Assembly (NCBI RefSeq): GCF_020510585.1
Contig: NZ_CP075190.1
Location: forward strand, 2,354,001-2,418,000
DNA length: 64,000 bases
Direction of reading: 5' to 3'
Source of the DNA: Ferribacterium limneticum
GTDB taxonomy: Bacteria > Pseudomonadota > Gammaproteobacteria > Burkholderiales > Rhodocyclaceae
The notes under the pieces were generated by a model. The model was not told the DNA's origin and did not search any database. It saw only the letters and a program-made list of their open reading frames with translations. This document shows positions 22,572 to 40,936 of this stretch, piece by piece. The number at the start of each line of letters is the position of its first letter. Within the stretch, counting starts at the first letter, position 1. Position numbers and translations under genes: made by a program.

Positions 22572-23942
22572 TCAGAACTGGTAGCTGTAGTCGATGTAAA
22601 AACGGTGCTGCTCCCATTCCTGCCTGGGCATTCCCTTGATGGTCGCCGTAGTAGAGCCATTTTCGACATGCGAGTCATAGTTCATGTAGATATAGCGAGC
22701 ACTAAGGTTTTTGACGAAGGGAATCGCGTACTGAAGATCGAATTCACGATAGTTTTCGCTGCCCTTAGCCAAGTTCTCCCGATTGCTGCTCTTGGCGCCT
22801 GTGCCACGAGCATATTTGAAGCCGGCTTTCAAACCTGGTACGTACTCTTTGAAATCGTAGGCTAGACGAATGGACCCTACCAATTCATCCCGATTGCTCA
22901 GGTCGGGCCCAAGTCCTGCTGACGTAGGGAAAGGATTGCTTCCGTGGTCTTGGGTCAAACTGCCGGTCTTCGTTGCATCGACAGCGAAATTGTCTTCGAT
23001 CCAGAAGCCATCAAATTTCGCAATAGCAGCACCCAATGTAAAGTTGCTGACTTTCCATTCGCCATCGATGTAGACACCCAAGCCGTCGTTCGTAAGGCGG
23101 GAGGTTCCCGTGCAGTCGAGCTCCTTCTCGGCTGAGCAGACAAACAGCGAACCCGCATCGCGTGACGTAAACAATCCGCCTGATATCTTTAGGGAATTTT
23201 TGTCGAAGGGGATTGTGTAAGCACCAACCAGACCGAACTTCGACAAATAGTTCTTCGAATTCAGGTATTCGGCCGTTACCAGAAGCGGGCCATTTGCATA
23301 TGAGGCACCGAAAATGCTGATGTAATCGATTTCATTGGCAACCCCGACGGCCGTTGCCTCAGTTTTGAATTTCTCGAATTCACCGGTACTGCGAGCACGC
23401 CACTGGTCATAGATGGCCCCATAGATGGTGAGACCATCGATTGGCTTAACCAAGGCGCTAGCACCGGAATAGGTGTCAGGTACAGCACGTGTAGCGGTGC
23501 TTTTTAGCAGCAAACTATTCTGGATTTGACGCCCGACCTTCAGTTGAGCGATATCTTGATACTTTAGCTTCACCAGTGCCTGGCCGGCAGTGACGTAGGA
23601 GTCCTCAAGTTGTCCGTTATTGCCGACATCGACCAAGTTGCTGGTTGGCGTCCCGCTATCGCCAATTTTTGCGACACCGTAGAGCGATGCATCGACCCCG
23701 ATAAAGCTCGCCCAATATGGCGAGGCGTAATTAATCTGAACACCCAGAGCACTTTGCTCATAGCTGCTTGCCTTTGGGCTGGGGGTCGTACTGGTCGGGT
23801 ACACCAGGCTATCGTCGTTCCAATAAACCGCACGTGCCTTCAGTTCCAGCTTGTGTTCCCCTTCTGCGGCGAAGGCTGCTACTGGCAGCATCAGGCCAGC
23901 AATCAGTGCATGCAGCAGATTTCTCTTGATTCTGTTACTCAT
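22572..23942 (-). CDS. OprD-family outer-membrane porin
   Basis: The start at 23942 is chosen because GGAGGA precedes it by 6 bp and it opens a signal peptide (RNLLHALIAGLMLPVAAFAA); 456 residues. Features of OprD porins: KARAVYWNDDS near the mature N-terminus, QIAQLKVGRQIQNSLLLKS-type strand, RDELVGSIRLAYDFKEYVPGLKAGFKYARG, and a final RFYIDYSYQF with terminal Phe. OprD-type channels admit carboxylates and basic amino acids, which suits the tricarboxylate genes upstream. A copy of the shared 17-bp operator motif lies about 130 bp upstream of the start. Confidence 0.87.
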   Translation of the reverse strand: MSNRIKRNLLHALIAGLMLPVAAFAAEGEHKLELKARAVYWNDDSLVYPTSTTPSPKASSYEQSALGVQINYASPYWASFIGVDASLYGVAKIGDSGTPTSNLVDVGNNGQLEDSYVTAGQALVKLKYQDIAQLKVGRQIQNSLLLKSTATRAVPDTYSGASALVKPIDGLTIYGAIYDQWRARSTGEFEKFKTEATAVGVANEIDYISIFGASYANGPLLVTAEYLNSKNYLSKFGLVGAYTIPFDKNSLKISGGLFTSRDAGSLFVCSAEKELDCTGTSRLTNDGLGVYIDGEWKVSNFTLGAAIAKFDGFWIEDNFAVDATKTGSLTQDHGSNPFPTSAGLGPDLSNRDELVGSIRLAYDFKEYVPGLKAGFKYARGTGAKSSNRENLAKGSENYREFDLQYAIPFVKNLSARYIYMNYDSHVENGSTTATIKGMPRQEWEQHRFYIDYSYQF

Positions 23943-24072
23943 TGTGACTCCTCCGTAAATTCCGATCTGCCATCCCAGATGGGGCAAACTCGACCAAGCT
24001 CACACTCCAGGAGTTGGTGAATTACAGTTTATGGAATCGATTAAATTGCGTGAAATGAATATAGGGTTCGTA

Positions 24073-24089
24073 TTGATGCCAATATCGCA
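24073..24089. promoter_or_regulatory. Candidate LysR operator before the porin (motif copy 3)
   Basis: TTGATGCCAATATCGCA shares 14 of 17 positions with the motif TTATTGCGAATATCGCA before PrpF 1. It lies between the PrpF 1 stop and the porin start. Confidence 0.4.
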
Positions 24090-24109
24090 TTAACGTCTGA
24101 CTTGTTGGC

Positions 24110-25204
24110 TTAGGCAAGCAAGCCCGCCTCTGCAGGGAGTAAAACGATGCCTTTGAACAGTTTTCGGGCTGTCCGAATCAATCCGGCAGAGACGATGTCA
24201 GGCTCCTGCGCAGAAAGCTCGCCATTTACATGAAGCCTGATCTCCAAGGTGCCAGCTGGTTGCTCAATGCGAACAAGACTGGGCTCAGCCTCGTCCAGCC
24301 TGGCGACACGATTCACTACTGTTCCAGGCAGGATGCTGGCTGCGGACAAACAAAGGGCGCCTGTAACGGCATAGGCGGAATGGCAACTCCACGGCGTGAA
24401 GTAGCGCGAGGCAATAACACCTTTGCCTCGTGGTGATGCGACCAACGCGATTTTCGGCAGGACCTTGCCGCGGACGTCGCCCATTCCTGCTTTTTCTGCA
24501 ATCTGTAGGCGTATCGATTCGAGTCGGGTTTTCAAATTGCTGTCTGCATCCAGTTCTTTCTTGCTCTCATGACCAGTCTTGCCCACGGCTTCAGCCGGGA
24601 CGAAAACAAGCGGCGTAGCGAAATCGATCAAGGAAACCTCGATCCCATCGATCACATCAAGCCGGTTACCTGTCGGGAACAAGCGCCCCGTCTTTGCACC
24701 AGTGGCATTCTTGAAATTCAGCTCTATCGGGGCACCGCTGCCAGGGACCCCATCGATTCTTGTCTCCCCATCATAGGTGACCATTCCACCAGGGGTTTGA
24801 ATAAGCGCCTCGACGACTTTCTGTGTGTTTATATTAAATATTCGTAAAGTGGTTACCGGTGAAGAAGCGGAAACCAGAGCATTTTCAATAGCAAATGGCC
24901 CAACACCCGCCAGCATATTGCCGCAATTTGGTGTCGTATCGACAGTTGCCGTTTCTACGGAAACCTGGGCAAACAGGTAGTCGATATCAATACCTGGGCG
25001 TGTTGATTTGCTGACGATAACGACCTTGCTGGTCAAGGTGTCGCCACCGCCGATGCCATCTATCTGCCGCACATGTGGAGAGCCCATGGCAGCCAGCAGT
25101 AGTTGATCTCGTGCAACCGGATCAGCAGGCAGATCACTGGCATGAAAATACGGCCCTTTGGATGTACCACCGCGCATCAAGGTACAGGGAATACTGAGCA
25201 ACAT
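24110..25204 (-). CDS. PrpF/GalD-family isomerase 1 (candidate aconitate isomerase)
   Basis: 364 residues; ATG at 25204, 9 bp after GGAG. Diaminopimelate-epimerase-like fold of the PrpF family: CTLMRGGTSKGPYF, AAMGSPHVRQIDGIGGGDTLTSK (Lys60), TPNCGNMLAGVGPFAIE (Cys94), EVSLIDFATPLVFV, CHSAYAVTGALCLSAAS. Members shift a double bond in unsaturated tricarboxylates: PrpF (2-methylaconitate), GalD (4-oxalomesaconate) and the fungal aconitate isomerase Adi1. In this block, interconversion of cis- and trans-aconitate is the best guess. A second member at 38733 has Ser in place of Cys94. Family firm, substrate inferred. Confidence 0.85.
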   Translation of the reverse strand: MLLSIPCTLMRGGTSKGPYFHASDLPADPVARDQLLLAAMGSPHVRQIDGIGGGDTLTSKVVIVSKSTRPGIDIDYLFAQVSVETATVDTTPNCGNMLAGVGPFAIENALVSASSPVTTLRIFNINTQKVVEALIQTPGGMVTYDGETRIDGVPGSGAPIELNFKNATGAKTGRLFPTGNRLDVIDGIEVSLIDFATPLVFVPAEAVGKTGHESKKELDADSNLKTRLESIRLQIAEKAGMGDVRGKVLPKIALVASPRGKGVIASRYFTPWSCHSAYAVTGALCLSAASILPGTVVNRVARLDEAEPSLVRIEQPAGTLEIRLHVNGELSAQEPDIVSAGLIRTARKLFKGIVLLPAEAGLLA

Positions 25205-25286
25205 AGCGATCATCTCCAATGGGTTGGCTAATGAGCGCTATTGTTTTGCCTGCGGCCAACTACGTGAAGTGAATTAATTTCAAACA

Positions 25287-25303
25287 TTATTGCGAATATC
25301 GCA
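25287..25303. promoter_or_regulatory. Candidate LysR operator before PrpF 1 (motif copy 1)
   Basis: TTATTGCGAATATCGCA, containing the inverted repeat TTGCGA-ATA-TCGCAA. It lies 83 bp upstream of the PrpF 1 start in the 122-bp gap after the dehydrogenase gene. Confidence 0.5.
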
Positions 25304-25326
25304 ACACAAGACATTTACGTCGCAAT

Positions 25327-26295
25327 TTACCCCCTGATTCCCTCCAGAACGAAGGCCCTGACATGAGTGAATGCCTCGCAAAAGTATGACTCGTATGTAT
25401 CTCGCTCAACGAATCCAAGATGGGGGGTACAAAGGATCTGCGGCACGCCGAGGTACTCGCGGACACCATCCGGTTCATCGGTAAAGACGTCCAGAGCGGC
25501 GGCTCCCGGACGGCCCTTGCGAACAGCAGAAAGGAGTGCACCAGGGACCAGCAATTCTGCCCGGCTGGTATTAACCAGCAACGCGTCAGGCCGTAGGCAG
25601 GCCAGATCATCTTCACTTATTAGATGTCGTGTTTCAGGGCACATTCTGAGATGCAAGGTGAGCACATCGAGTCGTTTCAGGAAGCCAGACCGGTCGGTGA
25701 CAAACTCGAATCCGTCCGATAGAGCTGCTTGTTTCGATTGCTCGCGCCCATGCACTAGCACGGTCATGCCGAAAGCACGGCCAATCAAGGCAACGCGTTT
25801 GCCAATTTTTCCGTAGCCCCAGATGCCAAGCGTTCGCCCGCTCACTACCCGCCCCAGCGATTCGTCTGCAATTTCCGCAACACTACGCTGCCAGTTACCT
25901 TGCTTGAGCTGTTGGGCATACGGCACCAATCGACGCGATGCAGCCAAAATGAGAGCCCACGTCAGTTCGGCCGGAGCAATCGGGTTGCCACTTCCGTCCT
26001 TGACCGGAATCCCCCTTCTGCTGCATGCCTCGAGATCGATGCAGTTACTTAAGCGACCAGTCTGGACAATCAATCTCAATCGGGGCAGCGCCTCAATCAG
26101 GCTAGAAGAAATTCGGGTTCGTTCACGGATAAGTACGAGGCAGTCAGTTTGCGCAAGAATTTCGGCCAGCCTCCCCTCCTCGCGAACGTGCTCGGTGATG
26201 ATCTCCAGATCGACATTCAGGTCGTCCAGAATGCGCACGGCGTCAAGACGGGCGACGACACCCTGATAATCGTCGAGCACGGTTACTTTCGTCAT
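25327..26295 (-). CDS. D-2-hydroxyacid dehydrogenase family protein
   Basis: 322 residues. The NAD-binding domain has GIWGYGKIGKRVALIGRAFGM (GxGxxG), and the catalytic part contains RPDALLVNTSRAELL and CTPHLGFVERDTYESY, with the expected active-site His in TPHLG. The family reduces 2-keto acids or oxidises D-2-hydroxy acids with NAD(H). Its ATG overlaps the MFS stop by 4 bp (ATGA), so translation is coupled. A substrate such as a citramalate- or malate-like acid would fit the block, but nothing in the sequence proves it. Confidence 0.85.
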   Translation of the reverse strand: MTKVTVLDDYQGVVARLDAVRILDDLNVDLEIITEHVREEGRLAEILAQTDCLVLIRERTRISSSLIEALPRLRLIVQTGRLSNCIDLEACSRRGIPVKDGSGNPIAPAELTWALILAASRRLVPYAQQLKQGNWQRSVAEIADESLGRVVSGRTLGIWGYGKIGKRVALIGRAFGMTVLVHGREQSKQAALSDGFEFVTDRSGFLKRLDVLTLHLRMCPETRHLISEDDLACLRPDALLVNTSRAELLVPGALLSAVRKGRPGAAALDVFTDEPDGVREYLGVPQILCTPHLGFVERDTYESYFCEAFTHVRAFVLEGIRG

Positions 26296-27560
26296 GATTC
26301 TTGCCCCTTATTTGGGTGTTTGATGCCCAACCGCGCGTAGATCGGCCGCAAATACATGCGAAACAGTTCCAGCCGAAAAAAGAAGAACAGCGCTGCCGCG
26401 ATCAGAAGGATGCCCATCAAGATCAAGCTCTCACCCGGTCCGCAGTAATCAGCCAGCGCTCCACTGAGCAGACCGCCAAGCGCAGCGGCCCCGAGATTGG
26501 CTGCGCTGTAGAGCGACAGCACACGGCCACGCAAGTGTTCGGGCACGATCGTTTGCAGGATCGTATTGCTCGAAGCGTTGCCGCTGACCAGCGCAAAACC
26601 GAGCAGGAACAACATCATGCTCGCCAACCAGATGTCCCTGGACAAGGCAAAGGCTAGCAGCGAGAAACCCGCCAGCAAATTAGCAAAAGCAACGGTGCCG
26701 CTCAGTCCACGCACACTGCGGCGGCTGGCCAGCATCAGTGACGCCAGCAGTGCCCCGGCCCCGGCACAACCAAGCAAAAGCCCCAGGGCTTCCGGGCCGC
26801 CGCGAAAAACATCCCGGGCGAATGCCGGCATCAGCGGAATGTAATTTGCAGCCAGGAAGTTCAGCAGAGCGACCTGCCAGAGAATGTGGCGAACGGAAAA
26901 GCTCTGGCGGACAAAAGCCATCCCCTCGCACATCACATCGGCGAAGGCGGCGGAACTGTGCGCTTGTGGGCTTGTCCTCAAATGCGACATGACACCAATG
27001 ATGGCGACAAAGGAAAGGGCATTCAGGGCGAAACACGCCGCCTCGGATGTTTGCGCGAGGATGGCGCCGGCCAGCGGAGGGCCGATGAAACGTGCCAGAT
27101 TGAAAAACAGCGAATTGAGGGCGATGGCATTAGGCAAATCCTGCCGATCTTGCACGAGCTGACTGGTATAGGCATGACGCAGGGGTACATCGAAACTGTT
27201 GAGAATGCCGAAGGCTCCAGCCGCGACCAGGATATGCCAGGGAGCGACCAAGCCCGTCCAGGTCAGCACCGCCAGACATACCGCCTGCAGCAGCATGCCG
27301 AGTTGCACGACCATCATCAGATGCCGGATATTCGAACGGTCAATGATGATACCTGCCAAAGGCGAAACGACCAGTTGGGGTATTTGCGCCAGGAAAGCGA
27401 CCGTTCCGAGCAGCATTGCCGAACCGCTCAGCCGATAAACCAGCCACCCAAGTGCGACCTGCTGTATCCAGTTGCCGAGGATAGAAACTGCCTGGCCAGC
27501 AAAGTAGAGGCGATAGCTGGGCTGGCGCATGGCCCGCCAGGCATGAGCCCGGTGTTTCAT
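26292..27560 (-). CDS. MFS transporter (DHA3-like)
   Basis: About 422 residues with 12 hydrophobic segments. The first helix is YRLYFAGQAVSILGNWIQQVALGWLVYRL, and the loop GIIIDRSNIRHLMMV corresponds to the conserved motif between helices 2 and 3. This subgroup exports drugs, siderophores or metabolites, but some members import. An alternative start at 27587 would place a perfect 8-bp hairpin (CCGGATGG/CCATCCGG, 27570-27591) inside the gene; I prefer MKHRAHAWRAMRQ at 27560. It follows tcuB and precedes the dehydrogenase, with 4-bp overlap. It may take the TcuC role (tricarballylate uptake) or export acids. Confidence 0.82.
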   Translation of the reverse strand: MKHRAHAWRAMRQPSYRLYFAGQAVSILGNWIQQVALGWLVYRLSGSAMLLGTVAFLAQIPQLVVSPLAGIIIDRSNIRHLMMVVQLGMLLQAVCLAVLTWTGLVAPWHILVAAGAFGILNSFDVPLRHAYTSQLVQDRQDLPNAIALNSLFFNLARFIGPPLAGAILAQTSEAACFALNALSFVAIIGVMSHLRTSPQAHSSAAFADVMCEGMAFVRQSFSVRHILWQVALLNFLAANYIPLMPAFARDVFRGGPEALGLLLGCAGAGALLASLMLASRRSVRGLSGTVAFANLLAGFSLLAFALSRDIWLASMMLFLLGFALVSGNASSNTILQTIVPEHLRGRVLSLYSAANLGAAALGGLLSGALADYCGPGESLILMGILLIAAALFFFFRLELFRMYLRPIYARLGIKHPNKGQES

Positions 27561-27633
27561 GGATGAAAACCGGATGGCTTCAACCATCCGGCGTTAGGGC
27601 AAGAGCATGGCATCGGTGGCTATGCGCCTGGAG

Positions 27634-28794
27634 TTACTCGGAGCCCAGTTGCAGGTTGTTCGGCTGCCGCTTCTCTATTGACCATTTGAGCAGAGAAGCC
27701 GAGCGGAAGATGCCATGGGCAAACTTGCCGTAAGGCAGCGTAAGGAACAGCGCCATCACAACCCCGAGATGCACGGCCAGCAACAAGCCCATGACCGCTG
27801 TGTCGCGCAGGCCAAGGAGCAGGAGTCCGGTCAGGCTGGTCAGGAAAAGGAGTGCGATGAAACCGCGATCCATCGGTTTTTGTTCGACGTCACCATGCCA
27901 GGGATGGCGCTTGAGATTCAACCAAAGCAGGCCGGCCGGGCCGATGAGCAGACCTATCCCGCCGGCGATGCCGAGGAGTACCGGCAGGCTGCTCACTGCG
28001 TAGGGCGCGTGCAGGTCGAGCAGGTAGTGGTAGAGCGTCGCTACGCTGGTTGCAGCGAAACACAGCATGAATCCGTAGAAAGTGAAGTGATGGAAGCGGC
28101 GACGCAGTAGGGTAAAAGCATCGTCGGCGTTATTGCAGCCCATGCCGTGACCGCCGTCCAGATACTTCAGTTGCAACACGTTGCCAGCCGCCTCGGCGCC
28201 AGCCTCGCCGCTGATCTCGCCGGGCGATATTTCACCCCAGAAGCGGCGTACACCGAGGGTCAAGGCAAGCACCGCGAACGCGAAGACGGCACCGAACATC
28301 AGGGCCAGCGTGTTGTGCGGAAAGATGGCGTAGAAGTTGCCAGCCAGCGGCGCATGCAGGATGCCACCGGTGACCTGCAAGGTCAGTACCAGGAACAGCG
28401 CCAGGCCAGCGGCCAGGGCCAGCGCCATCGTCGTCCCGTTGTTCTTGTAGAGGCCGCCGAATGCCTGCGGCCAAGCATAGGTGGCATAGGTTTCACCGCG
28501 CACCTTGGCCATTGCCTGCGGCACATTCACCGCAAACTCATGTGGCGGCGCGTACTGGCAGGCATGCAGGCAGGAGCCGCAGTTATGGCAGAGATTGGCC
28601 AGGTAATGGATGTCGGCCTTGCCAAATTCCAGCCGCCGGGTCATCGCCGGAAAAACGGCGCAGAAACCTTCGCAGTAGCGGCAGGCGTTGCAGATTGTCA
28701 TGATGCGGCCAACTTCAGCCTCCTTGTCGCTCAGGCGAACCTCGCCAATGGCTAATTCGCCGGCCTCGTTGACCAGTTTTTTAAGCGCCTGCAT
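27634..28794 (-). CDS. tcuB: TcuB, electron-transfer partner of tricarballylate dehydrogenase
   Basis: 386 residues. The N-terminus carries two iron-sulfur clusters' ligands: [15 protein letters not shown] and [15 protein letters not shown]. The remainder is a membrane domain with about six helices ([48 protein letters not shown]) and histidines suited to heme b. In Salmonella TcuB reoxidises the FAD of TcuA and passes electrons to the quinone pool. It overlaps tcuA by 14 bp, as expected for the pair. Confidence 0.92.
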
Positions 28795-30208
28795 GTTGTG
28801 CTCCTTGCTTCAATGCTGCCTGGGCAGCCTGCGCACCTGCGATGCGCCCGAATACGGTGCCAATGGTCATGCCGACCCCGGCGGTATAACCCTTGCCGAG
28901 GACGTTGCCAGCCATCATTTCGCCGGCAACGAATAGGTTGCGGCTGGGTTGGCCGGCGAAATGCACGGCGGCATGCTCATCGACCTTCAAGCCGAGGTAG
29001 GTAAAGGTGATGCCCGGTTTCAGCGGGTAGGCGTAGAACGGCGCCGTGTCGAGCGGCAGTGCCCAGTGGGTCTTGGCCGGGGTGACGCCTTCGGTATGGC
29101 AGTCGTCGAGCGCCGTGTGGTCGAAGGTGCCGACCCGGCAACCGGCGTTGTAGTCGCCCACCGTGCGGACAAAGGCTTCTGCGTCGAGGCCGAGCTGGCC
29201 GGCCAGCTCTTCCAGCGTATTGGCCCTGGCTCCGGGAAAAACCGGCGGCATGAACCGCCCGACCGCCTTGGCGTCGATGACCGAATAACCGACCTGTCCT
29301 GGTTGCTGGGCGACGAGGCGGCCCCAGATGGCGTAACGCTTCGGCCAGAAGTCCTCGCCTTCGTCGTAGAAACGCTGAGCGAACTTGTTCACCACGATAC
29401 CGAGCGAGACGCAGTCGATGCGGGTGCAGATGCCGCCATCGTAGAGCGGAGCGCGAGCATCGATAGCAACGCAGTGCGACTGCGAAGGATCGCCAATGAA
29501 GTCGGCGCCAGCGCCCTGCATGGCTTTGAGCAGTACGCCCTGATTGAAACGGGTGCCGCGGATGGCGAAATTGTCGGCAGGCCATTCGCCGTCGTCATTC
29601 TGGCCCCAGGCTTCGCGCAGCCATTCGCGGTTGGACTCAAAGCCGCCGGCCGCCATTACGCAAGCCTTGGCGGTGATCCGTTGGCTGCCGACCCAGGCTG
29701 CCTGGAACAGGCCATCAACGACTTCCATACGGTCAACCGGAGATTCATAGCGAATTTCAACACCCAGCGCTTCGGCACTGCGATAGTAGGCGTTGACCAG
29801 GGCTTTGCCGCCGCCCATGAAAAAGGCATTGGTCCGCGACAGTTGTAGCGTGCCCGACAACGAGGGCTGGAAATGTACGCCGTGCCGGCGCATCCAGCTC
29901 CGGCACTTGGATGATTCGCGGATCGCCAGGCGGGCCAGTTGTTCGTTGGTATTGCCCCCGGTGACTTTGAGCAGATCCTGCCAGAACTCCTCTTCCGGGT
30001 AGGCCTCGGTCAGCACGTCCTGCGGCGCATCGTGCATGCAGCGCAAGTTGCGGGTATGGCTGGAATTGCCGCCACGACGATCACTCGGCGCCGCTTCCAG
30101 CAACAGCACCGAGGCGCCAGCCTCACGGGCCATCAGGGCCGCACACAGCGCTGCATTGCCGCCGCCGATAACCAGCACATCGACGGCGTTGGAATTGTTG
30201 TCACTCAT
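28781..30208 (-). CDS. tcuA: TcuA, FAD-dependent tricarballylate dehydrogenase
   Basis: 475 residues from ATG at 30208, 6 bp after AGGAG. The flavin-binding motif is [30 protein letters not shown]. The family pattern continues with [26 protein letters not shown] and, at the end, [14 protein letters not shown] plus [17 protein letters not shown]. TcuA oxidises tricarballylate (propane-1,2,3-tricarboxylate) to cis-aconitate. The neighbouring tcuB and LysR genes reproduce the tcuRAB order of Salmonella. Here cis-aconitate would feed the isomerase and lyase steps. Confidence 0.9.
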
Positions 30209-30296
30209 CATTCGCTCCTTTTGAGCCCTTGTTGATTTCAGCGAAGACACTATCTCGCATCGGTGCGGCGACTCCCTAAGCCGTTCCGACATCCCC

Positions 30297-32653: not shown

Positions 32654-33475
32654 TTAGCTAAAAGTCGTTGCCGGACTGCGCGCCAAGATCTCCTCGGCCT
32701 TGAGAACGACAGGCCGATCCACCATCTTTCCGTCGACCTGGACAGCTCCGGACGATGTTTCGGCAGCGGCCAGAACCTTCCGGGCCCAAACCACTTCCTG
32801 CTCAGTCGGCCGGCTGAGCCGCTCGACAACCTCGACCTGCTTCGGATGGATACACATCTTGGCGGTACAGCCAAAGGCGCGGGCAAAAGTAAAATCGGCC
32901 TCAGTCCTCGCCAGATCATCAAGATTCGGGGTGACGCCGGCAATCGGCGGTGCCAGTTCTGCCGAGCGGGATGCGATGGCAATCTTGCTGTAGGGATAGA
33001 TCAGCCCGAGTTCGTCGCCCGAGAGATTGAGGTCAGCCGCGTAGTCGAGAGTACCGAAGGCGATGCGCTGCACGCCTTCGGCCAGCGCGATCTGATCAAT
33101 GTTGTTGATACCGCGTGCCGATTCGACGAGCGCGACGATCACAACCGCCGGGTTGGTGGCAGCAATAGTCATCTTTACCTGCTCGGCAAACTCCGTCTTT
33201 GGCAGCATGACTTGCGTGAGCCCCGCCGCCTTGATCATTGCCAGATCGTCGGCATACCAGGGCGACAAGGCATCGTTGATGCGTACGACCAGGCGCTCGG
33301 GAGCAACGCCAGCTGTTCGCACCCAGTCGGCGATGGCTTGGCGGGCATCTGCCTTGTCGGTTGGTGCGACCGCATCCTCGAGATCGAGAATGACCGCCCC
33401 CGCTCCGGCGGCCAGCGCCTTGGCGAAGCGCTCGGGACGATTGCCCGGCACAAACAGGTAGCTGACTGGCAGCAT
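32654..33475 (-). CDS. CitE/HpcH-type CoA-ester lyase; candidate citramalyl-CoA lyase
   Basis: 273 residues; the ATG shares one base with the stop of the CoA-transferase gene. Motifs of the citrate-lyase-beta-like family: SYLFVPGNRPERFAKALAAGAGAVILDLEDAV (Mg-binding Asp/Glu), VRINDALSPWYADDL, MLPKTE, VALVESARGINNIDQIA, FGTLDYAADL and AKMCIHPKQVEVV. Such enzymes split citramalyl-CoA, malyl-CoA or similar esters into acetyl-CoA and a keto acid; human CLYBL acts on citramalyl-CoA. In this operon it would produce acetyl-CoA and pyruvate. Confidence 0.86.
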   Translation of the reverse strand: MLPVSYLFVPGNRPERFAKALAAGAGAVILDLEDAVAPTDKADARQAIADWVRTAGVAPERLVVRINDALSPWYADDLAMIKAAGLTQVMLPKTEFAEQVKMTIAATNPAVVIVALVESARGINNIDQIALAEGVQRIAFGTLDYAADLNLSGDELGLIYPYSKIAIASRSAELAPPIAGVTPNLDDLARTEADFTFARAFGCTAKMCIHPKQVEVVERLSRPTEQEVVWARKVLAAAETSSGAVQVDGKMVDRPVVLKAEEILARSPATTFS

Positions 33476-34656
33476 CAGATGGCTCCAGCAGCACGCAGCT
33501 CGGCGATGGCGTCGGCCGAATAGCCCAGCTTGCCAAGGATGGCTTCGGTGTGCTGACCGAGTGCCGGCACGGCATCCATGCGCGGCTCGCATTCCGTCCA
33601 CGAGCCGGGCGGCAGCAGCGCCGGAACCTTGCCGACCGCGGTGTCGATTTCGCGCCAGCGATTGCGTCCCTTCAATTGCGGGTGATCCCAAACATCCTGC
33701 ATCGTATTGAGATGGGCGTTGGCAATCTGGGCGCTTTCCAAGCGCTCGATGACCTGTTCTGCGGTCAACCCGGAAAAAGCCTCAATAATGATATTTCTCA
33801 ACTCCTCACGAGCTGCGCTGCGTTTTGAATTGGAGGAAAAACGCTCTTCCTTGCCTAGGTCAGCGCGAAGCAGAACCTTGTCGCAGAACGCGGCCCACTC
33901 GCGTTCGTTCTGCAGGCCGAGCATGACGTTCTTACCGTCGCCGGCCGGGAACGGCCCGTAGGGGTAGATCGTCGCGTGGCTGGCGCCGGTGCGGCGCGGT
34001 GGTGTAGCGCCGTCGATGGCGTAGTAGAGCGGATAATTCATCCACTCGACCAGGCTTTCCAGCATGGAGATGTCGAGGTGCTGGCCGCGCCCGGTGATCT
34101 GCTTCTGCAACAGCGCAGCGAGGATATTGCTGTAGGCGTACATGCCAGCCGATATGTCGGCGATCGACGGGCCGGCCTTCGACGGTTCGTCTTCCGTACC
34201 GGTCACCGAGACAAAGCCCGATTCGCTTTGAATCAGCAGGTCGTAGGCCTTCTTGTCGCGATAGGGGCCATCGTTGCCGTAGCCGGAAATGTCGCAGACG
34301 ATGATGCCCGGCTTGATCGCCGACAACGCCTCGTACGATAAGCCGAGGCGTGCGGCGGCGCCAGGCGCCAGGTTCTGGACAAGGATATCGGCCTCTTCGG
34401 CGACCAGGCGCTGCAGGATTTTCTGCGCTTCCGGATGCTTGACGTCGAGGGTCAGACTTTCCTTTGAACGATTGGTCCACACGAAATGCGAGGCCAGGCC
34501 ATGCACACGCTCGTCGTAGCCGCGGGCGAAATCGCCAACACCAGGACGCTCGACCTTGATGACGCGAGCGCCGAGGTCAGCCAGCTGGCGGGTGGCGAAC
34601 GGGCCAGCGATAGCGTGTTCGAGGGTAATAACGGTAATGCCTTCCAACGGTCTCAT
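33475..34656 (-). CDS. CaiB/BaiF family CoA transferase; candidate itaconate or mesaconate CoA transferase
   Basis: 393 residues. Class III CoA-transferase features: ITVITLEHAIAGPFATRQLADLGARVIKVERPGVGD, NRSKESLTLDVKHPE, and the catalytic Asp in KKAYDLLIQSESG (Asp139). The C-terminal half holds GRGQHLDISMLESLVEWM. Family members use succinyl-CoA or another CoA donor to activate carboxylates such as mesaconate, citramalate and, in the mammalian SUGCT enzyme, glutarate and itaconate. It is tightly packed between the hydratase (11 bp gap) and the CoA-ester lyase (1-bp overlap). Confidence 0.88.
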   Translation of the reverse strand: MRPLEGITVITLEHAIAGPFATRQLADLGARVIKVERPGVGDFARGYDERVHGLASHFVWTNRSKESLTLDVKHPEAQKILQRLVAEEADILVQNLAPGAAARLGLSYEALSAIKPGIIVCDISGYGNDGPYRDKKAYDLLIQSESGFVSVTGTEDEPSKAGPSIADISAGMYAYSNILAALLQKQITGRGQHLDISMLESLVEWMNYPLYYAIDGATPPRRTGASHATIYPYGPFPAGDGKNVMLGLQNEREWAAFCDKVLLRADLGKEERFSSNSKRSAAREELRNIIIEAFSGLTAEQVIERLESAQIANAHLNTMQDVWDHPQLKGRNRWREIDTAVGKVPALLPPGSWTECEPRMDAVPALGQHTEAILGKLGYSADAIAELRAAGAI

Positions 34657-34666
34657 TCTGCGCTCC

Positions 34667-35512
34667 TTATTTCAGCACGGCCGTGGCGTCCATCGTCAGC
34701 CAGCCTTCATGGTCTTCGGCCCACAGATGGATCGTCTTGCCGTCGGCGCTCGGGGTGCCGTTGACAAAGAAATAGTTGATATCGAAAGTCGGCCGGACGG
34801 CACGGAATTCGAACTTGGCAACTTCTGCATCCGGCATCTTGTGGCGGAGCAGATCGAGCAATAGTGTGGCGATCATCGGGCCGTGCACGATCAGGCCGGG
34901 ATAGCCCTCGACCTCGGTCACGTATTTGCGGTCGTAGTGAATGCGGTGGCCGTTGAAAGTCAGCGCCGAGTAACGGAAGAGCAGAACATCGTCCGGCACC
35001 CACTTGGTCCTCCAGACGGGGTCCGGGTAGGTGGCCTTGGGCGGCGGCGCGACGTCGTTCGGGCTGGCCAGCTCGCGATAGACAATGTCGTGGAATTCGG
35101 TCAGGGCGATGGCACTCTCGCCGGCCCGGCGTAATTCATGGCGAACCTTGACGAAAACCAGCGGGCCGGTGCGGCCGCTTTTCTCGGTAACGTCGTGGAT
35201 GGTCGAGGTGCGGGTCACGGTTTCGCCGATGCGCAGCGGGGCATGGAACTCGAACTGGCTTCCCGCCCACATTCGGCGCGGCAGCGGCACCGGCGGCAGG
35301 AAACCGCCGCGCTTGGCGTGGCCATCCGGGCCAATTTCGGATTGGCGATACAGGGGCAGGAAGTACAACCAGTGCCACAGCGCCGGCAGCGTGGTGCCGT
35401 TGGCGGGGCGTTCGGCCGGCCGGTCAAAAGTGGCCGACAGTGCAGCATAGGGGGTTGCCGTGAAGAGATCGGTAACTTCTTCGGAACGGCCGATCCAGTC
35501 TTTCAGGTTCAT
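34667..35512 (-). CDS. FAS1-like/MaoC double hot-dog hydratase; candidate itaconyl/mesaconyl-CoA hydratase
   Basis: 281 residues with two hot-dog halves. The first contains LPALWHWLYFLPLYRQSEIGPDGHAKRGGFLPPVPLPRRMWAG, as in HTD2-like and mesaconyl-C4-CoA hydratases; the second has SALTFNGHRIHYDRKYVTEVEGYPGLIVHGPMIATLLLDLL with the hydratase Asp/His pattern (NGHRIHYD). Known members hydrate mesaconyl-C4-CoA to citramalyl-CoA. First of three tightly linked CoA genes, so it probably adds water to itaconyl- or mesaconyl-CoA, giving citramalyl-CoA. Confidence 0.85.
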   Translation of the reverse strand: MNLKDWIGRSEEVTDLFTATPYAALSATFDRPAERPANGTTLPALWHWLYFLPLYRQSEIGPDGHAKRGGFLPPVPLPRRMWAGSQFEFHAPLRIGETVTRTSTIHDVTEKSGRTGPLVFVKVRHELRRAGESAIALTEFHDIVYRELASPNDVAPPPKATYPDPVWRTKWVPDDVLLFRYSALTFNGHRIHYDRKYVTEVEGYPGLIVHGPMIATLLLDLLRHKMPDAEVAKFEFRAVRPTFDINYFFVNGTPSADGKTIHLWAEDHEGWLTMDATAVLK

Positions 35513-35589: not shown

Positions 35590-36873
35590 TCAGAGCATGC
35601 CGAGTTGCTGCGGCAACCAGAGCGAGAGGCCTGGCCAGTAGGTAACGAGGCCGAGGAAGCCCAGCATGGCGAGCAGCCACGGCCAGACAGCGACGGTCAG
35701 CTCGGTGATACCCATCTTGGTGATGCCGGACGCAACGTACAGATTGAGACCGACCGGCGGGTGGCACATGCCGATTTCCATATTGACCACCATCAGGATG
35801 CCGAAATGGATTGGGTGGATGCCCAGCGCGACAGCCACCGGAAAAAGCAACGGCGCGAAGATCAGAACGATCGACGAGGGTTCCATGAAGTTGCCGGCGA
35901 CAAGCAGGATGATATTGACCGCCAAAAGGAAGGTGATCACACCGAAGCCCTGCTCCAGCATCCATGCGGCCAGCGATTGCGGAATGCTCTCGTTGGTCAT
36001 GATGAAAGAGAACAACACGGCATTGGTGATGATGTAGAGCAGCATTGCCGACATGTTGGCCGAGTTGAGCAACACCCTCGGCACATCCTTCAGGCTCAGG
36101 TCCTTGTAGATAAAAATTGCGCAAATGAAGGCGTAGACCGCAGACATGGCGGCTGCTTCGGTCGGTGTGAAGATGCCGGTGTAGATACCGCCCATCACCA
36201 CGACAATCAGCAGCAAACCCCAGACCGAAGCGCGGAAGGCCGCCCAGCGCTCACCCCAGGTAGCCTTCGGCTGACGCGGGTAGTTGTACTTGCGGGCACG
36301 GTACCAGGTGACACCGCCGAGCACGCCGGCCAGTGCCAGACCAGGGATGACGCCGGCCATGAACAAGGCACCGACCGAGGTGTTGGTTGCCACCGAGAAC
36401 ATGACCATGCAGATGGATGGCGGGATCAGGATGCCGAGCGCGCCGGAGGTCGTGATGACACCGGCCCCGAAACGGGCCGGGAAGCCTGCCTTGACCATTG
36501 CCGGCAGCAGAATGGAACCGATCGCCACGACGGTCGCCGGGCTGGAGCCAGACACAGCAGCAAACAGTGCGCAGGCCAGAACGCCGGCCAGACCAAGGCC
36601 GCCGTACCAATGGCCGACCATCGACGAGGCGAAATTGATCATCCGTTTCGCTACCCCGCCATGGGTCAGGAAGTTGCCGGCCAGGATGAAGAACGGAATG
36701 GCCATGATCTCGAACTTCTCGATACCGGTGAAAAGTTTGAGTGCTACCGACTCAAGCGGCACCTGGGTCATCGTGAAGAGGAATGTAAGAACGGTCAGGC
36801 CGAGCGAAATCGAAATCGGCATGCCGGTCAGCATCAGGATGGCCAGCAGGCCAAATATTATGAGTGCGGTCAT
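35590..36873 (-). CDS. TRAP transporter large permease (DctM)
   Basis: 427 residues, about 12 membrane helices. Typical DctM stretches: MAIPFFILAGNFLTHGGVAKRMINFASSMVGH, FAAVSGSSPATVVAIGSILLPAM, GALGILIPPSICMVMF and MEIGMCHPPVGLNLYV. Forms the Na+-driven transport channel with the small subunit; its start overlaps that gene by 4 bp (ATGA). The operon position between PrpF 2 and the CoA genes says it imports the pathway's di- or tricarboxylate. Confidence 0.92.
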   Translation of the reverse strand: MTALIIFGLLAILMLTGMPISISLGLTVLTFLFTMTQVPLESVALKLFTGIEKFEIMAIPFFILAGNFLTHGGVAKRMINFASSMVGHWYGGLGLAGVLACALFAAVSGSSPATVVAIGSILLPAMVKAGFPARFGAGVITTSGALGILIPPSICMVMFSVATNTSVGALFMAGVIPGLALAGVLGGVTWYRARKYNYPRQPKATWGERWAAFRASVWGLLLIVVVMGGIYTGIFTPTEAAAMSAVYAFICAIFIYKDLSLKDVPRVLLNSANMSAMLLYIITNAVLFSFIMTNESIPQSLAAWMLEQGFGVITFLLAVNIILLVAGNFMEPSSIVLIFAPLLFPVAVALGIHPIHFGILMVVNMEIGMCHPPVGLNLYVASGITKMGITELTVAVWPWLLAMLGFLGLVTYWPGLSLWLPQQLGML

Positions 36874-37610
36874 TTCGGTTCTCCTCCGAGATCTTCCTTG
36901 CGCCGATCGGCGTCCACCGGCTTGTCTTGCGTGCGGCGGTTCTCGCCCAACATCGTGTGTTTCAAATCATGCGGATGCAGGTTGTCATCCAGGCCATACA
37001 ACGCGATGTCGACCGGTAAAACCTCATCGTCGAGGCCATCGACATGGCCGTGATCGTGGTGTGGCAGTTCGCCGGTACGGATAAACGAGAGGCACACCTG
37101 CAGGAAGCGGAAACACATCAGCGAGGTGCCTAGCGGAATGGCGCTATAGACCACCCAGGTCTGCCACTCCAGGTCTGGCGTGGTAGGGCCTTCCATAACA
37201 TCAGTAAGATCCAGACCAAACAGGTTGTAGAAAGCGTAGTGCGCACCGTTCTCCCAGACAAAGTGGGCCCCCATGTAGGCAACGATGCCGGTAAAGGTGG
37301 CGCCAGCGAGCAGGCCGAATATGATGAACTTCGAGCGATTACTGTCGTTCATGCGATTGATCAGCACATCGACCCCGACGTGGATACCGGTGCGAACGCC
37401 GTAGGCGGCACCAAACTTGGCCATCCAGACGAAGAGGATGATGGTCAGTTCCTGCGCCCAGCTCATGTTGATCGAAAGCAGCAGATCCTGCAGGCCGGGA
37501 ATGGCAAACCCGGACATGTAGCGATGAACCACTGCAAAGAAAGTGATGAGTGTCGCCACGCCGATCAGCAGCGTGATGAGTAGCTCTTCCAATTTATCGA
37601 GAAATTTCAT
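36870..37610 (-). CDS. TRAP transporter small permease (DctQ)
   Basis: 246 residues, four membrane helices (LLITLLIGVATLITFFAVVHRYM; ELTIILFVWMAKFGAAYGVRTGIHVGVDVLI; FIIFGLLAGATFTGIVAYMG; WVVYSAIPLGTSLMCFRFLQV). It is longer than usual: a hydrophilic tail of about 50 residues with HHDHGHVDG follows the last helix. Lies 64 bp after the binding-protein gene and overlaps DctM. Confidence 0.9.
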   Translation of the reverse strand: MKFLDKLEELLITLLIGVATLITFFAVVHRYMSGFAIPGLQDLLLSINMSWAQELTIILFVWMAKFGAAYGVRTGIHVGVDVLINRMNDSNRSKFIIFGLLAGATFTGIVAYMGAHFVWENGAHYAFYNLFGLDLTDVMEGPTTPDLEWQTWVVYSAIPLGTSLMCFRFLQVCLSFIRTGELPHHDHGHVDGLDDEVLPVDIALYGLDDNLHPHDLKHTMLGENRRTQDKPVDADRRKEDLGGEPK

Positions 37611-37673
37611 ATTTCCCCCGTTGAGAGTAAAACGATCCGGCGGCGCACGGGCCCCGCCGGATGGCGATGCGGC

Positions 37674-38669
37674 TTACTTGGCCAGGCCGGTTTCCTTGCG
37701 GATGGCGTCAATCAGTTCTTTGCCGATACGTGGTGCCAATTCATCCTGGACCGGCAGTAGCGTCTTGATCCAGCGCGCTTTTTCATCCGCGGTCGGGGTG
37801 TAGATGGTGCTCTTGCCGGAAGCCTTGATGGCAGCCATGGCCTTGGCTTCATCCTCTTCGGCAACCTTGTCGTTGAAATCCGTCGCATCCTTCATGGCAG
37901 CGGTGATTTCGGGCTTGATATCAGCCGGCAACTTGTCCCAGAAGGCCTTGTTCATCACGACGACGTAGCCACTGTAGGTATGCCGGGTCAGGGTGATGTG
38001 CTTCTGGACTTCGTACTGCTTCTGGGTATAAAGGTTGGCAAGATTGCCATCGGCACCGTCCACCACGCCTGTCTGTAGCGCCTGATAGACCTCAGAGAAG
38101 GCCATGGTCTGCGGCAGTCCGCCGATTGCCTTGATGATGGCCTGATTGACCTTGGACGAGTTGATCCGAATCTTCTGGCCCTTGGCCTCTTCCGGCGTAC
38201 GGATCAGCTTATTCGAACTGAGCACGCGGAAACCGGCATCCCAGTAGGACAGACCAACCATGCCGCGGGGCTCGAGTTTCTTCAGTAGCGAAGCGCCGAT
38301 CGGCCCACGCGTCACGCGATGCAAGGCCTGTTCATCCGGAAAAATATAGGGGAGGTCGAAAGCCTCGAATTCCTTGACCCCCATCGGTCCGAACTTGCCA
38401 GCTACTGGCGCGAGCATCTGGACGCTGCCCATTTGCAGGGCCTCCAGTTCCTCTTTGTCTTTGTACAAGGTTGAGTTAGCGAAGACCTCTACCTTGACCC
38501 TACCTTTGGTGCGCTTTTCGACCTGCTGTTTGAAGTGTTCGGCCGCCTGGCCTTTCGGTGTGTCAATAGCTGCGACATGCGAGAACTTGATCAGGATAGG
38601 TTCCTGAGCATAGGCAAAACCGGAAAAAGCAAGGCCGAGAACGGCGGACAAAGTAACGATGGGTTTCAT
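37674..38669 (-). CDS. TRAP transporter binding protein (DctP)
   Basis: 331 residues with signal peptide (VTLSAVLGLAFSGFAYA). DctP-family pattern: ILIKFSHVAAIDTPKGQAAEHFKQQVEKRTKGRVKVEVF, QMGSVQMLAPVAGKFG and GQKIRINSSKVNQAIIKAIGGLPQTMAFSEVYQALQTGVVDGADG; the Arg in KIRIN is the usual carboxylate anchor. It collects the organic acid in the periplasm for the Q/M permease downstream. Upstream, 64 bp away, is PrpF 2. Confidence 0.92.
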   Translation of the reverse strand: MKPIVTLSAVLGLAFSGFAYAQEPILIKFSHVAAIDTPKGQAAEHFKQQVEKRTKGRVKVEVFANSTLYKDKEELEALQMGSVQMLAPVAGKFGPMGVKEFEAFDLPYIFPDEQALHRVTRGPIGASLLKKLEPRGMVGLSYWDAGFRVLSSNKLIRTPEEAKGQKIRINSSKVNQAIIKAIGGLPQTMAFSEVYQALQTGVVDGADGNLANLYTQKQYEVQKHITLTRHTYSGYVVVMNKAFWDKLPADIKPEITAAMKDATDFNDKVAEEDEAKAMAAIKASGKSTIYTPTADEKARWIKTLLPVQDELAPRIGKELIDAIRKETGLAK

Positions 38670-38732
38670 GGGTTGTCTCCTTAGTGATTGATTTAGTACC
38701 GCACGATGGCGGCAATAGAACTGGTTTAGGAA

Positions 38733-39848
38733 CTACGCTGCCTCGGAAATGATTTCTTGTGTCTTTGGCTTGATACAGTGGTCCGCAACGAAGACCTCCC
38801 CTGCGAGCAGAGGACGTGCAGAAGTCAAGAGCGCTGCGCCGACCAGTTTGGGTACGCCAGTCCATGGGTCGGCGGCGGATACGACGTTGCAGCTCATTTT
38901 TCCACTCGGATGCTCAATGACGATGCGCTGTGAGTCGTTTTGATCAAGTTCCGCCAACTCTTCAGCAATCGTATCCGGCGTGTGGCAGGCAGCAGCGAGT
39001 GCCATAGCTCCAGTCGCGGCAAAGACAGGGTGGCAATTGGACGAAACGAAATAGCGTGAGGCAATCGTTCCGCCATCACGCGGCGGAGCGATAATGGCAA
39101 CCTTGGGAATGCCTAGATCGGGGGCATCTGACAACCCCATTAGCCGGGCGGCAGCAGCACGAACCTCTTCGAGACGCTCCAGGAATATCGGATCTCCATC
39201 CAACTCTTGCTTGCTCTCGCTTCCCGTTTTACCCAGCGAGCTAGCCTTGATAAAAACAATGGGAATGGCGAAATCAATGCAGGTTACCGGCATGCCCAAG
39301 ATCAGGTCTTGAGGTGCGCCGGTCGGCAACAAACGGCCGGTACGAGTGCCAGTGGGGTCAAAAAATTGCAGCGCGATTGGTGCGCACTTTCCTGGGACGC
39401 CATCCAGTTCAAAGTTGCCTGCATAGGAAACCTGACCACCTGGCGTTTGCACCGTTGCCTCAACGACTTTCTGGCTATTGGTGTTGAGAATACGAACTTT
39501 GGTGACCGGGCTGCTGGACTTTACCAAACCCTGCTCAATAGCAAACGGAGCTACACCAGCCAGCATGTTGCCGCTATTGGGAAGGATATCAACCTGGTCG
39601 CGGGCAACTGAGACCTGAACAAACAGGTATTCGACATCAGCATCCTTCTGTAAGGAAGGGCCGACAATCACGACTTTGCTGGAGTGGTCGTTTCCCCCAC
39701 CCATTCCGTCAATCTGGCGAGCATCGGGCGAACCCATTGCCGCAAGCAAGAGGCGGTCACGCGCGGCCGGATCTGCAGGCAGGTCTTTGGCAAGGAAAAA
39801 CAGTCCTTTGGACGAACCGCCTCGCATCAGTACGCAGGGAATACGCAA
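38733..39848 (-). CDS. PrpF/GalD-family isomerase 2 (Cys replaced by Ser)
   Basis: 371 residues from a TTG start at 39848, backed by AGGAGA 7 bp upstream. It is clearly homologous to the protein at 24110 along the whole length (PCVLMRGGSSKGLFF; LLLAAMGSPDARQIDGMGGGNDHSSK; EATVQTPGGQVSYAG), but reads LPNSGNMLAGVAPF where the first copy has TPNCGNMLAGVGPF. The Cys there is a catalytic candidate in PrpF, so the two copies may differ in substrate or direction. It heads the minus-strand pathway genes and faces a LysR gene across a region with the shared operator motif. Confidence 0.85.
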   Translation of the reverse strand: MRIPCVLMRGGSSKGLFFLAKDLPADPAARDRLLLAAMGSPDARQIDGMGGGNDHSSKVVIVGPSLQKDADVEYLFVQVSVARDQVDILPNSGNMLAGVAPFAIEQGLVKSSSPVTKVRILNTNSQKVVEATVQTPGGQVSYAGNFELDGVPGKCAPIALQFFDPTGTRTGRLLPTGAPQDLILGMPVTCIDFAIPIVFIKASSLGKTGSESKQELDGDPIFLERLEEVRAAAARLMGLSDAPDLGIPKVAIIAPPRDGGTIASRYFVSSNCHPVFAATGAMALAAACHTPDTIAEELAELDQNDSQRIVIEHPSGKMSCNVVSAADPWTGVPKLVGAALLTSARPLLAGEVFVADHCIKPKTQEIISEAA

Positions 39849-39919
39849 AATCTTGTCTCCTATTCAGCTTCGTGTTTTGTTAAGTTGAATAGTAGTGAAA
39901 CCATTACTCGTTTTGAAAT

Positions 39920-39952
39920 GCAATAAATTTGATTTTTATTGCGTAAAACGCA
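39920..39952. promoter_or_regulatory. LysR operator region between PrpF 2 and LysR (motif copy 2)
   Basis: GCAATAAA (39920-39927) and TTTATTGC (39935-39942) form a perfect inverted repeat, joined to a second one, GCGT-AAA-ACGC (39941-39951). The stretch TTATTGCGTAAAACGCA (39936-39952) matches the motif before PrpF 1 in 14 of 17 positions. A -10-like TATATT follows at 39953 for the LysR gene. Confidence 0.55.
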
Positions 39953-40042
39953 TATATTCCTAGCTAAGAAAACTGATGGGCCAGGGCAAATTTCGGACTC
40001 AGCAAACACAAAAGCCGATATGCCAGAGACAGGAGACAAGAT

Positions 40043-40936
40043 ATGAAAATTGACTTCGATGGTATTCAAGCGTTCGTCGTGATCGCCGAGCTGGGGGGCT
40101 TCAACAAGGCAGCTGAACACCTTCATGTAACACAGACCGCCCTGACCCGCCGGGTCCAAAAGCTCGAGGCTTATCTAGGACTGAGATTGCTTGATCGAAC
40201 GACACGCTATGTCGAGTTGACAGCAGTTGGTCGAGAGTTTTTGCCTCAAGCGAGAGCTATCGTGAACGAAATGACGTCGGCCGTTGGTCGCCTCAAGGAC
40301 ATGTCCAAGAATGCAAAGGGCAACTTCACGCTGGCCTGTGTGCCGACAATGGCGGCACACATCCTGCCAAATCTGATCCGGGAATATTCCAAGGTCTGCC
40401 CGCAAAATCGTATTCGCTTGCTTGACGCAACCTCTTACGAGGTCAGGGATTCAGTGCTAAACAGCCAGGCAGAACTAGGGATAGGCATTCACGGCGAGCA
40501 GCATCCTGATGTGCTTGAAACCCCGCTTTTCGACGACCCACTGATGTTTTTTTGCAGAGATTCAAACCCACTCAGCGAGATGAAATCGGTAACGTGGTCA
40601 GATATGAGTGGCGCAGATCTGATTGTTGTAAGCAACCTGACTGCAACCCGCGTTTTCATGGACTACCAACTGGCAAAACGTGGCATTAGCCTGAGTGGCT
40701 CCTACGAGGTACAGCATCACGCAACTGCGATCAGCCTTGTCGCCGCAGGCGTCGGTTGCGCAATCCTGCCCGCCTCGACATTCAAGGAGGGTGACAGGCC
40801 AGGTGTCCGGAAGATCCCGTTGGTTAGTCCCGTTGTAAAGCGCAAGGTTATTCTTATCCAGCGAAAGAACACGAGCCTCTCTCCCGCGGCAGAGGCATTT
40901 TGTGACTTGATAAAGGCAAGTCACTTTGATGGATAA
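40043..40936 (+). CDS. LysR-type regulator, divergent from PrpF 2
   Basis: 297 residues. Winged helix-turn-helix at residues 1-62 (FVVIAELGGFNKAAEHLHVTQTALTRRVQKLEAYLG), then the effector domain (NFTLACVPTMAAHILPNLIREY; GIGIHGEQHPDVLETPLF; AISLVAAGVGCAILPAS). AGACAGGAGACAAG precedes the ATG. It diverges from PrpF 2 across inverted repeats typical of LysR sites and is probably the regulator that acts there and at the two other motif copies. Codon use is less GC-rich than in the TRAP and CoA genes. Confidence 0.88.
   Translation: MKIDFDGIQAFVVIAELGGFNKAAEHLHVTQTALTRRVQKLEAYLGLRLLDRTTRYVELTAVGREFLPQARAIVNEMTSAVGRLKDMSKNAKGNFTLACVPTMAAHILPNLIREYSKVCPQNRIRLLDATSYEVRDSVLNSQAELGIGIHGEQHPDVLETPLFDDPLMFFCRDSNPLSEMKSVTWSDMSGADLIVVSNLTATRVFMDYQLAKRGISLSGSYEVQHHATAISLVAAGVGCAILPASTFKEGDRPGVRKIPLVSPVVKRKVILIQRKNTSLSPAAEAFCDLIKASHFDG

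Follow-up and report, generated by a model that had tools for sequence, protein, structure and literature searches.

In Ustilago maydis, itaconate is made from cis-aconitate brought out of the mitochondrion, by way of a PrpF-family isomerase, Adi1, and a trans-aconitate decarboxylase, Tad1 (PMC4720413). Among bacteria, the Pseudomonas-type gene cluster for itaconate and methylsuccinate has the content ich-mcd-mmgE-ict-ccl (PMC12290011; PMC9875883) and is absent from Pseudomonas putida KT2440 (PMC9875883), and tarRAB of Bacillus serves a route in which trans-aconitate is isomerised to cis-aconitate and passed to the tricarboxylic acid (TCA) cycle (PMC11495376). Here we describe a gene cluster of Ferribacterium limneticum with likenesses to each of these systems. 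It lies in a stretch of 64,000 nucleotides (the window; contig NZ_CP075190.1 of GCF_020510585.1, positions 2,354,001-2,418,000), and all positions below are counted within that window. The best-supported reading, to which we give a probability of about 80%, is that the cluster is a tricarboxylate-degradation operon leading from aconitate through itaconate to acetyl-CoA and pyruvate. A preliminary description of this DNA had proposed such a route, which phylogeny and diagnostic residues now back, as do checks on the whole genome and the fact that the gene set recurs; from these and from the protein families present we infer each catalysed step and its direction.

In the proposed scheme, the acids would enter the cell through an OprD porin and a TRAP importer, and tricarballylate would be oxidised to cis-aconitate by TcuA and TcuB. 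A PrpF-family isomerase would then turn cis-aconitate into trans-aconitate, unless the latter were taken up directly, and a Tad1-like lyase would decarboxylate trans-aconitate to itaconate. Activation of itaconate with succinyl-CoA by a class III CoA transferase, formation of (S)-citramalyl-CoA by an Ich-like hydratase and cleavage by a CitE-like lyase would yield acetyl-CoA and pyruvate. The conserved core would be Ict-Ich-Ccl, to which the trans-aconitate decarboxylase and PrpF have been added, with TcuAB as a further add-on. As in U. maydis, a PrpF-family isomerase accompanies a lyase of the Tad1 clade with the same diagnostic residues; unlike in the fungus, the lyase leads into a module for itaconate breakdown, and uptake genes and TcuAB stand alongside. 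With the Pseudomonas-type cluster the window shares the hydratase family, the class III CoA transferase and the CitE-like lyase, but it lacks mcd and mmgE, and the Tad1-like lyase and PrpF stand in their place. TcuA, TcuB and a LysR regulator recall Salmonella tcuABC-tcuR, whereas the MFS gene of the window belongs to MFS_3; to our knowledge, the Salmonella system has no PrpF, lyase or CoA enzymes. A PrpF-family isomerase, a LysR-type regulator and a dedicated transporter are common to the window and Bacillus tarRAB, whose route stops at cis-aconitate and passes into the TCA cycle; the available text of that report contains neither the word itaconate nor the word decarboxylase (PMC11495376).

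The gene on which the scheme turns encodes a lyase that is 57% identical to Ustilago Tad1 in a gapless alignment (249/438). Its best matches in PDB are five Tad1 chain sequences (531-540 bits), followed by a 'fumarate lyase' (3c8t, 456 bits) and by PcaB (371 bits for 1re5, and 347). Because lyases of a sister clade are also 49-55% identical to the window lyase and often adjoin fumarases, identity by itself was dropped as proof of Tad function, and clade membership and residues were examined instead. Two trees were made with IQ-TREE, one with 59 rows and one with 47; they were drawn from the midpoint, and the program flagged long outgroup branches. In each, a single clade unites the window lyase and its relatives with the two fungal proteins and with the bacterial proteins nearest to Tad1 (support 100/100 and 100/99, respectively). 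Both trees separate this clade from the fumarase-associated clade and from PcaB of a pca operon. Within the clade, the two fungal sequences sit inside a set of bacterial subclades whose branching order the trees do not settle, their nearest rows being P0130 and the Komagataeibacter plasmid protein L090 (97/97; 99/97).

The columns that are specific to this clade relative to its sister include Tad1 S197, N198, K300 and S320, which correspond to S154, N155, K257 and S277 of the window lyase. All four residues are kept in 93/93 locus rows (a count that includes the window and has four genomes in it twice) and in 240/240 proteins (the 120 top hits of the window lyase plus the 120 of Tad1, each out of 8000 scored). 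They are kept in 0/20 sister rows, where the letters are T, H, M or S, and A or G. Sister-type letters also occur in L105, a long branch that joins the sister clade in the 47-row tree and lies outside the 20 rows, and four PcaB-like rows have none of the four Tad residues. In Tad1 crystal chains, according to positions worked out from the PDB chain sequences, S320 is Ala in 9h4h, R360 (Ala) and G123 are altered in 9h4g, and I315 is altered in 9h4e; no paper on these structures was listed in a literature search for Tad1 structures. R360, equivalent to window R317, does not discriminate, as Arg also occurs in the sister clade and in PcaB rows; the I315 position is Ala in the window and variable within the clade. 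We infer that S320 is catalytic because it is altered in a Tad1 structure and is placed in what we take to be the loop motif GSSxxMPxKxNP. Together, clade and residues make the window lyase a candidate trans-aconitate decarboxylase. Elsewhere in the genome, other matches to the lyase superfamily are distant only (at most 41 bits). The MmgE/PrpD family has no match in the genome, so no decarboxylase of the CadA/ACOD1 type was seen, and that candidate was dropped.

The enzymes expected downstream of itaconate have relatives among PDB entries and in clusters of Pseudomonas-type itaconate gene content. The hydratase matches two PDB entries, the itaconyl-CoA hydratase 8khg (249.5 bits, 49% identity) and 8huc, which is named by domain only, and no second copy of it was found in the whole genome. 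The best PDB relatives of the CitE-like protein are acyl-CoA lyase beta chains (9nzb/8khl; 175 bits, 43% identity), which we take to be Pseudomonas Ccl. The CoA transferase matches SUGCT (9br7) with 234 bits, its Asp139 being aligned to a conserved Asp, and is 65-67% identical to the CoA transferases of three plasmid clusters (L134, L137 and L138) with ich-mcd-ict(-ccl, -mmgE) content, clusters whose type was assigned from the genes they hold and not from assays. The preliminary description had stated that standard bacterial itaconate genes use another class of CoA transferase and that the window would hold an alternative module. That statement fails for the Pseudomonas type, in a comparison that rests on these three clusters, with P. 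aeruginosa PA0882 outside it: Pfam assigns the CoA transferases of L137 and L138 to class III (PF02515). It may hold against the Yersinia-type itaconate enzyme, given the CoA-transferase class of the latter. Since class III also occurs in Pseudomonas-type clusters, the core appears to be no alternative itaconate module but Ict-Ich-Ccl of the Pseudomonas type, to which PrpF and the putative trans-aconitate decarboxylase supply a new front end.

The gene-neighbourhood search that the preliminary description had called for bore out the grouping. Among 267 stretches encoding a lyase relative, the best 80 were taken as related loci. Genes were counted in the 54 of these whose flanks reach 8 kb or more to either side of the lyase; the other 26, which have less flanking sequence, are outside the count. 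The hydratase was matched in 50, the CoA transferase in 48, the C-C lyase in 43, PrpF in 42 and TcuA in 17 of the 54. All four of hydratase, CoA transferase, C-C lyase and PrpF occur in 35/54 loci (14 with TcuA as well, 21 without it), a grouping that goes beyond chance. The lyase itself is rare in random genome samples: it was found in 1/369 genomes of the class at 1e-180, which was its own genome, and in 15/399 of the order at 1e-120, six of them, its own genome among these, reaching at least 75% identity, with no match in the 5 other genomes of the same genus and the 7 others of the same family listed in the order sample. Of the bacterial proteins nearest to Tad1, P0139 matched 7 plasmid records at 60-80%, all from the window's own subclade, and P0169 matched in 0/385 genomes of another class at E 1e-170.

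The genes of the cluster, with corrected starts where these apply, are as follows.

38733..39848, minus strand: PrpF-b, candidate aconitate isomerase or related allylic isomerase (PF04303, 357 bits; NF033377, 443.6 against a cut-off of 440)
37674..38669, minus strand: DctP, TRAP solute-binding protein with a signal-like N-terminus, judged by eye (PF03480, 317 bits)
36870..37610, minus strand: DctQ, TRAP small permease subunit (PF04290)
35590..36873, minus strand: DctM, TRAP large permease subunit (PF06808, 431 bits; TIGR00786)
34667..35512, minus strand: Ich-like itaconyl-CoA hydratase, putative (FAS1/MaoC hot-dog; FAS1_DH_region; best PDB relative 8khg)
33475..34656, minus strand: Ict-like class III (CaiB) CoA transferase, putative (PF02515, CoA_transf_3, 357.5 bits)
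32654..33475, minus strand: Ccl-like (S)-citramalyl-CoA lyase candidate (CitE-like, HpcH_HpaI; PDB 9nzb/8khl)
31244..32599, minus strand: Tad1-like lyase, candidate trans-aconitate decarboxylase (Lyase_1/ADSL_C, CMLE-type; Tad1 identity, clade and residues)
30297..31232, minus strand: LysR-type regulator between lyase and TcuA, TcuR-like by position (PF00126, PF03466)
28781..30211, minus strand: TcuA, FAD-dependent tricarballylate dehydrogenase (NF006130, 758 bits against a cut-off of 369)
27634..28794, minus strand: TcuB, 4Fe-4S protein of tricarballylate use (NF011607, 697 against 524; TIGR02484, 408 against 247)
26292..27587, minus strand: MFS_3 transporter of an EntS-like family (PF05977, 215 bits; EntS model, 119 against a cut-off of 324)
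25327..26295, minus strand: D-2-hydroxyacid dehydrogenase (PF02826, PF00389; 22 NCBIfam models matched, each below its cut-off)
24110..25219, minus strand: PrpF-a, candidate cis/trans-aconitate isomerase with LigU-type Lys and Cys (NF033377, 496 against 440)
22572..23942, minus strand: OprD-family outer-membrane porin (PF03573, 94.7 bits; start taken as the first ATG by eye)
40043..40936, plus strand: LysR2, divergent LysR-type regulator facing PrpF-b (PF00126, PF03466)

All families named in the preliminary description were found at the place it gave, although it had left out the MFS_3 and dehydrogenase genes. Its single unidirectional block has to be given up, as LysR2 lies on the plus strand, divergent from PrpF-b; the minus-strand order from 39848 to 22572 is PrpF-b, DctP-DctQ-DctM, hydratase, CoA transferase, CitE-like lyase, CMLE-type lyase, LysR, TcuA, TcuB, MFS_3, dehydrogenase, PrpF-a and OprD. 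As listed, the open reading frames of the CitE-like protein, of the TcuR-like regulator and of TcuA began too early; TcuA starts at 30211 or 30208, at one of two ATGs behind AAAAGGAG. Genes of the core are separated by 10-77 bases or overlap, the stop of the CoA transferase and the start of the CitE-like gene doing so as ATGA. Both ends of the cluster (22572-26295, where OprD, PrpF-a and the dehydrogenase have 0.51-0.56, and 36870-40936, where LysR2, PrpF-b, DctP and DctQ have 0.53-0.56) are lower in G+C than the middle from DctM through TcuB, at 0.59-0.63, which suggests a composite origin in which the ends would have another history. The cluster is flanked by DUF3422 and RND genes.

The two PrpF proteins are 52% identical to each other, and no further PrpF was found in the whole genome. 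Family and context make both of them candidate aconitate isomerases. PrpF-a keeps both Lys66 and Cys100 of LigU, while PrpF-b keeps the Lys and has Ser at the Cys100 position, so that two differently equipped isomerases are encoded in one operon. Among 67 PrpF rows of related loci, Lys66 is present in 66, and the Cys100 position is Cys in 52 and Ser in 15; all 15 of the Ser-type rows adjoin a divergent LysR2 homologue. Because LigU crystal chains with K66M and C100S exist (as read from the chain sequences), the Ser at this position may alter the chemistry of PrpF. A plasmid search partly aimed at TbrA returned no Bacillus among the matches listed, which were 60 of 350 records.

TcuA and TcuB clear their curated NCBIfam cut-offs and support the start at tricarballylate proposed earlier as part of a complete route, but that start is a local extension and TcuA a lineage-specific add-on. 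Fifteen of the 17 TcuA matches are at least 77% identical to the window protein, and two at 35% (L049 and L055) may be other flavoproteins. TcuAB occurs with the dehydrogenase, PrpF-a and OprD mostly in Azoarcus-, Aromatoleum-, Thauera- or Denitromonas-like loci. Likewise, the pair of dehydrogenase and MFS_3 genes (25327-27587) is found in relatives mostly together with TcuAB, with an MFS_3 match in 10/80 related loci.

Several observations weigh against the reading of the cluster as an aconitate-to-itaconate operon. The D-2-hydroxyacid dehydrogenase and MFS_3 genes play no part in the proposed scheme, and the CitE-like lyase falls far short of the RipC cut-off (150 against 375). In formal terms, NF033377, a model for 4-oxalomesaconate tautomerase, accepts the two PrpF proteins; this is expected if they are Adi1-like, because the closest homologue of known function of Adi1 is in that tautomerase family (PMC4720413, Table 1). 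There was no match for the C-C lyase in 11/54 loci, for PrpF in 12/54 and for the CoA transferase in 6/54. Five genomes of the clade have no match for CoA transferase, C-C lyase or PrpF beside the lyase, showing only hydratase, TcuA/TcuB or LysR, and in L127 none of these; of the five, G1047 was seen over 4.2 kb only, and the contig of G1004 ends soon after the lyase. The bacterial proteins nearest Tad1 (P0124-P0240) were outside the neighbourhood survey, and the plasmid relative nearest Tad1 (L090:8001-9422, Komagataeibacter) stands alone among transposase, recombinase and toxin-antitoxin genes.

Automatic annotation favours an aromatic-acid cluster, in which the lyase would be a true PcaB and the PrpF proteins 4-oxalomesaconate tautomerases. 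Many relatives are annotated as 3-carboxy-cis,cis-muconate cycloisomerase or pcaB, no NCBIfam model matches the lyase better than one for PcaB, TIGR02426 is missed by just half a bit (355.2 against 355.75), and both PrpF proteins exceed the cut-off of the tautomerase model. The likeness to PcaB, however, ends with superfamily and annotation. The PcaB model PRK09053 is missed by 95 bits (499.9 against 595), and PcaB from a pca gene set (L095) falls in another clade at 44% identity. No protocatechuate 3,4-dioxygenase (PF00775, Dioxygenase_C) was matched in the whole genome, against matches in 4/14 controls. For gallate or 4,5-cleavage of protocatechuate, the search, which had other ring-cleavage families outside its scope, found a single LigB-family gene, which is DOPA-dioxygenase-like (174 against that model's cut-off of 233), and no other pca or gallate gene is present among the cluster genes examined. 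Clade, cut-offs and the missing ring-cleavage dioxygenase thus leave the aromatic explanation with hardly any probability. An explanation by analogy with the sister clade, namely a fumarate-releasing C-N or C-S lyase with CoA enzymes acting on an unrelated C5 acid, is also quite improbable. Its appeal is that the sister enzymes often adjoin a fumarase and dicarboxylate or tricarboxylate carriers; a fumarase is present in 5/7 neighbourhoods inspected (L091, L093, L094, L128 and L130). The window lyase nevertheless lies outside that clade and differs from it at the four diagnostic positions, and two fumarase queries, one of class I and one of class II, matched in 0/80 related loci at 1e-30. The sister clade is itself mixed, since no fumarase is listed beside L092 and L096, whose plasmid gene tables are incomplete.

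It is somewhat less improbable, though still unlikely, that PrpF isomerises aconitate to cis-aconitate for the TCA cycle, as in Bacillus, and that the lyase and CoA enzymes form a side branch for clearing toxic trans-aconitate or using external itaconate. Salmonella TcuAB supplies cis-aconitate to aconitase. In B. velezensis, trans-aconitate is channelled into the TCA cycle, and the aconitate isomerases TarA and TbrA belong to the PrpF family (PMC11495376). Arguing instead for flow through itaconate, the decarboxylating branch looks like the conserved part of the cluster, because the lyase occurs with the hydratase in 50/54 loci and with the CoA transferase in 48/54, against 42 for PrpF, and the full core occurs without TcuA in 21 loci; the C-C lyase, at 43/54, is hardly more constant than PrpF, which weakens this argument.

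If the cluster does convert aconitate to itaconate, its significance extends beyond one genome. Plants such as sugar cane, maize and grasses release trans-aconitate (PMC11495376), which is an inhibitor of both aconitase and fumarase (PMC4720413). The bacterial route described for it is isomerisation to cis-aconitate, so that a decarboxylating route would be a second one, and no bacterial trans-aconitate decarboxylase was seen among the papers listed in a search of the open PubMed Central literature, which had subscription papers and preprints outside its scope. We consider it rather probable that Proteobacteria own such a second route for trans-aconitate and tricarballylate via itaconate, its decarboxylase hidden under PcaB or adenylosuccinate lyase labels, and that fungal Tad1, nested among these enzymes, came from a catabolic operon of this kind. 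In that event, the pathway to an antimicrobial metabolite would have arisen from a degradation route turned to production. Itaconate would be an intermediate inside soil bacteria, a large block of PcaB and adenylosuccinate-lyase annotations would be corrected, and prokaryotic decarboxylases would become available for itaconate production. The four-residue signature turns this into a prediction that can be tested in any genome. In C. necator, a second homologue of itaconyl-CoA hydratase has a CoA transferase and a gene of the adenylosuccinate lyase family next to it but no C-C lyase, and it was given no function (PMC12290011). Our guess is that this locus belongs to the same cluster family, in which case the present scheme could explain that second hydratase cluster.

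The sister clade poses a question of its own: could it be an uncharacterised fumarate-releasing lyase family? The five neighbourhoods with a fumarase also hold dicarboxylate or tricarboxylate carriers, and four of them (L091, L093, L094 and L128) hold GntR regulators; L129, L131, L132 and L133 are further sister-clade loci, untyped or partly typed and outside the seven inspected. Within the clade of the window lyase, a metagenome-assembled genome titled Bordetella parapertussis (L028) carries the core of hydratase, CoA transferase, C-C lyase and lyase, and its title may be misassigned. A plasmid of the archaeon Halalkalicoccus (L139:5595-11320) carries a tcuA-PrpF-MaoC-CaiB cluster with a CoA ester lyase nearby; no match to the Tad1-like lyase was found within 15 kb, and the cluster is possibly an independent assembly.

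Uptake parts vary among the loci, with TRAP in the window, DctA on Azospirillum, Bradyrhizobium and Variovorax plasmids and TctA/TctC elsewhere, and the tricarboxylate transport parts TctC, TctA and a PrpF-TctC fusion recur beside the core. In this fusion, PrpF is joined in frame to a TctC tricarboxylate-receptor domain. It was seen in 27/80 loci (L007-L086; for example L072, L066 and L048) as one alignment of more than 550 residues, 25 of them without internal stops, and also at L089:12850-14874. In the L089 protein, neither a signal-like N-terminus nor a strongly hydrophobic linker is present, and the TctC domain, which is normally periplasmic, would therefore be cytosolic.

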